Shown in pieces: positions 4,191-5,784 of a stretch of DNA of 64,000 nt. The notes beneath the pieces were generated by a model. That model had not been told where the DNA came from. It ran no database searches and saw only the letters and a program-made list of their open reading frames with translations. The position numbers were made by a program, and so were the translations under genes. How positions within the stretch are numbered: position 1 is the first letter of the stretch; each line of letters begins with the position of its first letter. Origin of the DNA: Micromonospora sp. HM5-17 (GTDB lineage: Bacteria; Actinomycetota; Actinomycetes; Mycobacteriales; Micromonosporaceae); assembly GCF_003762835.1 (NCBI RefSeq), contig NZ_RJWA01000003.1:186001-250000 (forward strand), written 5' to 3'.

Positions 4191-5759
4191 TCAGAGCAGG
4201 CTGAGCTGCTCGACGGCCGGTGCCGGGGCGGCGTCCGGCGGCACCTGGCGAGTCTCGCCCGGGGCCGGACGGTGCAGGCCGTACCGCCGCGCGGCGATCC
4301 GGACCCGGGCGGTCACCTCCCGCTGGTACGCCTGCGGCAGGTAGGAGCCCGCGCCGTACAGCTCCCGGTAGCGCGGCACCAGCCCGGGGAACTCGCGGGC
4401 CAGCCAGGCCGCGTACCACTGCCGGGCGCCGGGGCGCAGGTGCAGCGGCAGCGGCGTGACGCTGACCGCCCCGGCCGCGGCGATCGCGGCCACCGTCTCC
4501 TCGATGGAGTCGTCGGTGTCGGTCAGCCCGGGCAGGATCGGCGCCATCAGGACGCCCACCGCGAACCCGGCGTCGCGGAGCGTCCGGACGACGTCCAGCC
4601 GCCGCCGCGGGCTGGGCGTCCCGGGCTCGACCGCCCGCCACATCCGCTCGTCGACGAAGCCGACCGAGAGGGAGAGGCCGACCTGGGTCACCTCCGCGGC
4701 CTGGCGCAGCAGCGGCAGGTCCCGCACGATCAGGGTGCCCTTGGTCAGGATCGAGAACGGGTTGGCGAAGTCTCGCAACGCGGCCAGGATCTGCGGCATC
4801 AGCCGGTACCGGCCCTCGGCCCGCTGATAGCAGTCCACATTGGTGCCCATGGCGATGTGCCCGCCACCCCACCGTGGCGCCGCCAGCTCGCGGCGGAGCA
4901 GCTCGCCCGCGTTGACCTTGACGATGACGCGGGTGTCGAAGTCGCGCCCGGGGTCGAGGTCGAGGTAGGTGTGGGTGTTGCGGGCGAAGCAGTTGTGGCT
5001 GACCACGCCGTTGGCGATGAAGTCGCCCGTCCCGGTGGTGATGTCGTAGAGCCGCAGCTCTCGCCCCTGCGGCTCGATGCGGCGGACGCGTAGCGCCGTC
5101 CGGCTGCTCAGGATCGTCCCGTCGAGCGGGGCGGCCGTGGCCTGGCCGGCGCCACATCGCTCGGGGTCGCCGGTCGTCGGCCCTGACCGCCCGATGCCGA
5201 GCAGGCTGTCGGTGATGGTCAGGTAGGGCCGGGGCGGTTCGCCCGGCGGGGCGGCGGTGACGTGCTTCCACCCGCGTGGAGTGAGGAACCGGTGGTCTGC
5301 GCTGGCGGTCAGCGTGGTGCCGTCCTCCAGCGTGATCCGGTACGCCGGCTTGACGGTCGACCAGTGGGCCAGCACCGCGGTGCGGACGTAGCGTCGGTGG
5401 TTGCCCTGCGCGACGGTCCCGTAGATCTCGTCGCCGACCCGCAGCTCGGCGAGGGGCCGGGTGTGCCCGTCGGCGAGGAGGATCTCGGTCTCGCCGGCCA
5501 GGCAGTAGACGCAGGCGTGGCTGCACCCCCGGTAGGGGTTGACGGTCCACTCGAACGGGACGCGGGAGGCGCCCGGCACCCGGTTGATGATCGACCTGGC
5601 CCGCACCTCGTAGAAGGTCATGCCGGCGAAGCCGGGGGTGTCGAAGGTGCGGGTGACGGCGCCGGGCAGCGCCAGCGGCAGGGGTGGGGCCGCTGGCGCC
5701 GCCTCCGGGGGGTCTCCGGGGCCGCCGTGCGTGGCCGACGACAGGTTGTCCCAGCGCAT
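4191..5759 (-). CDS. Intein-containing Rv2578c-family radical SAM protein
   Basis: 522 aa precursor from the ATG at 5759 ('MRWDN', as in the mycobacterial homologue); an in-frame ATG at 5768 is the alternative. The host protein carries CSHACVYC (Cys79, Cys83, Cys86), the CX3CX2C triad that binds a 4Fe-4S cluster, but the third Cys is the first residue of an intein (residues 86-256). After splicing, Cys257 becomes the third cluster ligand and restores 'CSHACVY-CFARNTHTYLD'. The rest matches the Rv2578c family: 'VKVNAGELLRREL', 'AMGTNVDCYQRAEGRY', 'SILTKGT', 'APILPGLTD'. The biochemical function of the family is unknown. A LexA box lies 10-25 nt upstream, so DNA-damage induction is expected. 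Confidence 0.9.
   Translation of the reverse strand: MRWDNLSSATHGGPGDPPEAAPAAPPLPLALPGAVTRTFDTPGFAGMTFYEVRARSIINRVPGASRVPFEWTVNPYRGCSHACVYCLAGETEILLADGHTRPLAELRVGDEIYGTVAQGNHRRYVRTAVLAHWSTVKPAYRITLEDGTTLTASADHRFLTPRGWKHVTAAPPGEPPRPYLTITDSLLGIGRSGPTTGDPERCGAGQATAAPLDGTILSSRTALRVRRIEPQGRELRLYDITTGTGDFIANGVVSHNCFARNTHTYLDLDPGRDFDTRVIVKVNAGELLRRELAAPRWGGGHIAMGTNVDCYQRAEGRYRLMPQILAALRDFANPFSILTKGTLIVRDLPLLRQAAEVTQVGLSLSVGFVDERMWRAVEPGTPSPRRRLDVVRTLRDAGFAVGVLMAPILPGLTDTDDSIEETVAAIAAAGAVSVTPLPLHLRPGARQWYAAWLAREFPGLVPRYRELYGAGSYLPQAYQREVTARVRIAARRYGLHRPAPGETRQVPPDAAPAPAVEQLSLL
4992..5504 (-). other. Mini-intein in the radical SAM cysteine motif
   Basis: 171 residues, beginning with Cys (codon 5502-5504) and ending His-Asn (Asn codon 4992-4994) followed by a Cys +1 nucleophile (4989-4991). 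Block A is 'CLAGETEILLADG'; block B is 'LTASADHRFLTPRGWK', with the conserved His but Ser in place of the usual Thr of TxxH; blocks F/G are 'LYDITTGTGDFIANGVVSHN'. There is no room for a LAGLIDADG homing endonuclease, so it is a mini-intein and probably no longer mobile. All canonical splicing nucleophiles are present. Confidence 0.93.
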
Positions 5760-5768
5760 GGCGACCAT

Positions 5769-5784
5769 TCGAACACATGTTCGA
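5769..5784 (-). promoter_or_regulatory. LexA binding site (SOS box)
   Basis: The 16-mer TCGAAC-N4-GTTCGA matches the mycobacterial/actinobacterial LexA consensus without mismatch (TCGAACACATGTTCGA on the + strand). It is immediately upstream of the radical SAM gene. Confidence 0.88.

Follow-up and report, generated by a model that had tools for sequence, protein, structure and literature searches.

A predicted class 1 mini-intein at the third cluster cysteine of an Rv2578c-family radical SAM protein with an SOS box, probably derived from a homing allele

Why should an intein occupy a catalytic cysteine motif, and does it regulate its host there or is it merely tolerated? A gene from Micromonospora sp. 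HM5-17 raises this question. It lies in what we call the window, the whole 64,000-nucleotide stretch of DNA that was analyzed. The original prediction, made from the letters, was that a mini-intein interrupts the Fe-S cysteine motif of an SOS-linked radical SAM protein. It also proposed that splicing could act as a switch for cluster assembly. We examined the host gene, the insert, the SOS box, and the history of the site in related genomes, and then we weighed what splicing might be for.

Two family models bore out the host assignment in that prediction, an Rv2578c-type radical SAM protein. NF038135 (Rv2578c family) scored 521 bits against a cut-off of 430, with its match starting at residue 4 of the frame at 4191-5768. 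NF038136, which is named "intein-containing Rv2578c family radical SAM protein," matched the whole protein with 832.1 bits (cut-off, 700). Because the NF038135 match begins at residue 4, the ATG at 5759 (MRWDNL...) is the likely start. Counted from this ATG, the cysteine at which the insert begins is Cys86, as had been claimed, and it is Cys89 when counted from the ATG at 5768. The combination of intein and host is already catalogued in NCBIfam as NF038136, which shares the host family and the presence of an intein with the window protein. The length of that model (574 positions, versus 317 for the intein-free NF038135) suggests that larger inteins went into it; the insert in the window is a mini form of 171 residues with no endonuclease. 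The intein is an ordinary one from a catalogued family. Among the titles listed by a literature search for Rv2578c, and for intein together with radical SAM, LexA/SOS, or Micromonospora, none concerned this intein.

The insert could be read exactly at 4992-5504 of the minus strand. It is 513 nucleotides, or 171 codons, and it is in frame. Its letters are CLAGETEILLADGH...ANGVVSHN, preceded by YRGCSHACVY and followed by CFARNTHT (features are in Table 1). As had been noticed, it begins with Cys and ends with His-Asn, with a Cys immediately after. Its location in the cluster motif was also correctly called: it is at the third cysteine of CX3CX2C, with C-SHA-C-VY before it and CFARNTH after it. 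The class 1 splicing set is complete, comprising Cys1 as the N-terminal nucleophile, block-B Ser-x-x-His, block-F Asp, and His-Asn before Cys+1. TIGR01445 (intein_Nterm) matched residues 89-163 with 34.8 bits (cut-off, 24.5), and TIGR01443 (intein_Cterm) matched residues 241-260 with 19.8 bits (cut-off, 15.6). These scores and the exact 171-codon boundaries uphold the call of a mini-intein at this place. Pfam Intein_splicing reached 29.2, under its gathering score of 35.8, and this counts against the explanation that we favor below. No LAGLIDADG match was found in the window protein with Pfam at E values up to 1; the insert is of mini-intein size and has no homing endonuclease domain. Judged by its sequence, the stretch is a class 1 mini-intein, and it would be expected to splice itself. 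Chance or misassembly as the source of the insert was ruled out because many genomes share this insert at this position.

Table 1. Features of the intein-bearing gene and its upstream region (positions are those of the window).
Feature	Position	Strand	Evidence or remark
Rv2578c-family radical SAM gene, precursor with intein; other upstream ATG at 5768	4191..5759	-	NF038135, NF038136
C-extein, rest of radical SAM protein	4194..4991	-	PF04055 best stretch 289-419
Cys+1, C-extein nucleophile, third cluster Cys once spliced	4989..4991	-	invariant in A1 as C260
Mini-intein, 171 aa, Cys1 to Asn171	4992..5504	-	boundaries read, family models, fold match
Block G His-Asn, intein end	4992..4997	-	
Block F Asp (YDITT)	5043..5045	-	
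Variable linker, limits approximate; LAGLIDADG domain position in large relatives; holds intein Cys117	5124..5186	-	low pLDDT at residues 198-211
Block B SADH (Ser-x-x-His)	5292..5303	-	
Intein Cys1, occupying third motif position of precursor	5502..5504	-	sequence reading
N-extein, ending YRGCSHACVY	5505..5759	-	
Cys(-3), second Cys of CX3CX2C, candidate disulfide partner of intein Cys1	5511..5513	-	invariant in A1 as C86; precedent PMC3922620
Cys(-7), first Cys of CX3CX2C	5523..5525	-	invariant in A1 as C82
Palindromic SOS (LexA) box TCGAACACATGTTCGA	5769..5784	.	0 mismatches; begins 25 nt before ATG 5759

We modeled the precursor with AlphaFold2 from 28 sequences (mean pLDDT, 74.9; pTM, 0.59). 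The model contains a predicted HINT domain, in which residues 87-261 aligned with the Ssp DnaB intein 1mi8 (Z, 21.6; rmsd, 1.6; 136 residues), the best structural match. Among solved chains, the best sequence match of the intein was the Npu DnaB intein 4o1r (E, 2.7e-6). Unlike the window's intein, the Npu and Ssp DnaB mini-inteins sit in a helicase, and in the alignment 4o1r has Thr in block B where the window's intein has Ser. A fold search with the model matched, for the host, spore photoproduct lyase (4fhf, E of 1.9e-5; 4fhc, E of 3.5e-5) and lipoyl synthase (5exk, E of 2.7e-5), all with TM scores below 0.5. With one intein-free relative (L197) as the query, no solved relative of the host was found by sequence at an E value of 0.1.

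The prediction hinged on intein-free relatives aligning across the junction, and they do. In our alignment A1, six such relatives join both sides of the junction and are gap-free beside the insert. C82, C86, and C260 are invariant in this alignment. One further claim, that the third cluster ligand arises only through splicing, needs correcting. The intein Cys1 itself holds the third motif position (CSHACVY-C1), so the letters of the precursor already read CX3CX2C.

The SOS linkage that had been claimed was supported at the sequence level. The box is perfect and is at a promoter position, starting at -25, and LexA presumably regulates the gene in the window's organism. Across the 64-kb window, 3 matches to the pattern were found when up to 2 mismatches were allowed, versus 2.08 expected from shuffles. 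Window-wide matches are thus no more than chance, and the SOS claim rests on the exact match and on its position, which is conserved in relatives. A box with up to 2 mismatches was present between -250 and +20 in 116 of 120 parsed genomes (the window included). It started at -23 to -26 in 113 of the 120, and 3 of the 7 others have an estimated start. An equally good match occurred in 7 of 1200 mononucleotide-shuffled upstream stretches and in none of 120 coding stretches of equal length. When genomes were separated by intein state, the box (up to 2 mismatches) was found with 45 of 47 empty sites, 17 of 18 mini-inteins, and 54 of 55 large and mid-sized inteins. Because its share is the same in empty, mini, and larger alleles, the SOS link is a property of the host gene and is indifferent to the intein. 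A connection between intein presence and SOS control was ruled out, since box quality is alike in all intein states.

Published work also links radical SAM genes to the SOS response, and this gene family to a phage. In Streptomyces venezuelae, the radical SAM gene vnz_31145, a possible member of this family, is described as LexA bound and induced about 20-fold by mitomycin C (PMC9380542). The core Gram-positive SOS regulon is said to include a radical SAM protein (PMC7739468). According to PMC12924846, phage Samy integrates in a Streptomyces gene of the Rv2578c family; the same source cautions that SplB is a weak annotation. Counting the intein, two or more kinds of mobile element therefore target this gene family.

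We turned to the distribution of the insert, as the original prediction had proposed for the Micromonosporaceae. Among 200 genomes from the window's family, a profile search with the host model matched 167. Seventeen of the 167 had no listed place and were left out of the length classes. By length alone, the 150 listed places comprised 81 with an insert of more than 200 residues, 13 with a mini insert, and 56 with none, so that large, mini, and empty sites coexist in the family. The exact site was parsed in 120 genomes, mostly hand-picked to span states and genera so that the numbers are not frequencies; it was empty in 47, held a mini-intein in 18, an insert of 200-280 residues in 3, and a larger one in 52. 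Of 80 further loci (those listed of 577), 79 were parsed and L164 was left out. The window's genus group is Plantactinospora (P. endophytica and P. alkalitolerans), and the mini form was present in all 7 genomes examined. The Micromonospora genus group (g4) had 20 empty sites and 14 large inteins. Of 394 genomes spanning the class, 31 passed the NF038136 cut-off. Among the matches listed, mini forms occurred in Hamadaea, Kibdelosporangium, Jiangella, Phytoactinopolyspora, Cryobacterium, Microbacterium, Pseudonocardia, and others.

The homing cycle, in its usual description, runs through intact, decaying, deleted, and empty forms of one site, and such forms coexist here. The LAGLIDADG domains of the large inteins are decayed to differing degrees. 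Pfam LAGLIDADG_3 (E up to 0.01) was found in 16 of 28 large or mid-sized inteins scanned. Both LAGLIDADG motif acids were found by regular expression in at least 5 of 55 large or mid-sized inteins, which is a lower bound because the expression is strict. Where large relatives have the endonuclease, a short variable linker is present in the window's insert. We found no close phage or plasmid copy of the intein: a tblastn search (E of 1e-3) returned 43 phage and 2 plasmid records, all below 60% identity. Among the 20 phage records listed of the 43, 13 were terminase, 4 were helicase, and 3 were hypothetical genes.

Trees were built from the 120 genomes and 31 of the 79 parsed loci (151 rows in the extein tree); they were quick trees with many open forks. 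Intein presence or absence required at least 30 changes on the 151-row extein tree, versus a mean of 43.0 (range, 35-49) in 200 label shuffles. The mini and large states required 11 changes on the 100-row intein tree, versus a mean of 30.8 (range, 24-38) in 200 shuffles. Because the observed changes are below those of the shuffles yet numerous, there is phylogenetic signal plus many gains or losses, the counts being blind to gain versus loss. All seven Plantactinospora rows were united in the intein tree with a support of 93. In the extein tree, the window's row was apart from the other six Plantactinospora rows, on open forks, and this counts against the explanation that we favor below. In the seven Plantactinospora genomes, median pS was 0.24 for the extein and 0.24 for the intein, an equality that would fit joint vertical descent. 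Their median pN/pS, obtained by pairwise counting and not by a likelihood test, was 0.265 for the extein and 0.330 for the intein. By these values, the Plantactinospora mini-intein evolves under purifying selection, which would be the outcome if the unspliced protein is useless. Among the 14 large forms from Micromonospora, change is faster in the intein (0.470) than in the extein (0.189).

We are highly confident that the insert represents a homing class 1 intein allele that lost its endonuclease in the Plantactinospora lineage and persists as a splicing-only mini-intein. An actinobacterial class 1 allele would home to the DNA that specifies the third cluster cysteine in Rv2578c-family proteins. 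The endonuclease would have been lost in the Plantactinospora lineage and splicing kept. After DNA damage, LexA would be expected to release the gene, and the precursor would be made. Cys1 would then attack the Tyr(-1) bond, the N-extein would be passed to Cys+1, and Asn would cyclize. The ligated product would regain CX3CX2C with Cys+1 as its third cysteine, and only this ligated protein is likely to be an active enzyme. The mini-intein is most likely a homing element minus its endonuclease, retained since the host needs splicing.

What splicing is for is a separate matter, on which two readings differ, and either can be compatible with the homing-allele explanation. In the first, the intein is a selfish leftover that splices fast and unconditionally. 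It would persist only because an exact deletion seldom occurs and an imprecise one destroys the enzyme. We think that this is probably correct. The homing-cycle pattern, the patchy distribution, and the series of decaying endonucleases all favor it, and so does an SOS box that is independent of intein state. Retention in 7 of 7 Plantactinospora genomes fits it less well, as neutrality allows this outcome but predicts it weakly.

The second reading is redox-gated maturation. Here, in an oxidizing cytoplasm, a Cys(-3)-Cys1 disulfide would block the first splicing step and reduction would release it, as proposed for MoaA, so that an oxygen-labile cluster enzyme is finished only when the cluster can survive. 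MoaA is itself a radical SAM protein, and its intein in Pyrococcus abyssi was reportedly studied by Callahan in 2011. A native disulfide between an N-extein cysteine, given as Cys-3 in one review, and Cys1 is described as controlling the splicing activity of that intein (PMC10663303, PMC3922620). The window precursor has the same two cysteines (CVY-C1), so a redox trap in it is plausible. The spacing Cys(-3)-X-X-Cys1 was also present in the two sets of 73 and 56 intein rows, counts that are partly built in because the parser required Cys1, Cys+1, and the motif cysteines. Furthermore, residues 84-259 of the precursor model aligned with 3nzm, a DnaE intein in a redox trap, with a Z score of 17.9. 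However, Cys(-3) serves catalysis as a cluster ligand, and it does not vary among the six intein-free proteins of A1 either. Because catalysis keeps this cysteine anyway, the layout is no evidence of a selected switch. Model residues 82-86 had pLDDT values below 50. There are also relatives with the same SOS box that have no intein, and this patchiness argues against a conserved regulatory need. We regard redox gating as possible but doubtful, and a regulatory role of the intein is not favored.

Comparison with other inteins bears on the same point. The P. abyssi MoaA intein is likewise in a radical SAM protein with Cys(-3) and Cys1 available, but its host is from another family and another domain of life, and the likeness is drawn from review descriptions and not from sequence. 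The DnaBi1 intein of Mycobacterium smegmatis is actinobacterial too and is described as an oxidative-stress sensor (PMC6195587). It is given as a class 3 intein with two intein cysteines, whereas the pair in the window is the extein Cys(-3) and the intein Cys1. The SufB intein of M. tuberculosis, as described, is actinobacterial like the window's. Within the window's intein, Cys117 is unlikely to be a conserved sensor because its place is in the variable linker and none of the other six Plantactinospora inteins has it. A literature search, with most subscription journals outside its reach, found no redox experiment on the window's intein. We also considered that the intein senses the cluster or redox state directly. 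In this view, the nucleophile would be held, and splicing stopped, either by the Cys(-3)-Cys1 disulfide or by Cys(-7), Cys(-3), and Cys1 jointly binding a metal or an Fe-S cluster. A store of precursor built under SOS would then mature into a repair enzyme only once an oxidizing insult is over. We consider this unlikely.

The original prediction had also proposed that Ser in block B, in place of the usual Thr, may slow splicing. As a local peculiarity, this did not hold up. Of 73 inteins in one set, 69 have Ser (the other 4 have Gly by pattern), and in a second set it was present in 56 of 56, so it is the norm of the allele. Decay as the origin of this Ser was ruled out, since it is usual in the allele, large inteins included. 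A related proposal is that the Ser slows splicing until it becomes rate limiting after SOS induction. Thr is the usual block-B residue and is described as aiding the first splicing step (PMC10663303), so a slower first step is possible for the allele as a whole. However, a residue that is normal in the allele, even in its large inteins, does not indicate a relaxed or decayed site, and we find a rate-limiting role very improbable.

The same genome has other inteins. RecA (L134, G000:C12, approximately 300032-301975) contains two. The first is in the P-loop (GPESSGK before, HN-TT after) and has a LAGLIDADG domain, and the second starts after GVMFG. Upstream of recA there is an SOS-like box with 2 mismatches (L134, 1135-1150), and a second such match, also with 2 mismatches, is farther upstream (L134, 899-914). 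GyrA (L132, G000:C12:755047) has an intein with a LAGLIDADG domain (E, 5.6e-16). A phage-type fusion resembling a DNA adenine methylase and GNAT (L136, G000:C2:107313) has an intein after FPPFY. RecA, the SOS inducer, and the radical SAM protein, a likely SOS output, would both need splicing.

This locus amounts to a natural panel: related species share one gene with one insertion site and a conserved SOS box, and their alleles are empty, mini, or endonuclease bearing. The panel provides matched intein-free controls for asking if an intein placed at a catalytic cysteine has a regulatory effect on its host or is merely tolerated. If cluster or redox sensing were true, it would be a case of convergence with the MoaA intein, in the same kind of motif but in another radical SAM family. 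Two radical SAM families would then share one posttranslational switch.
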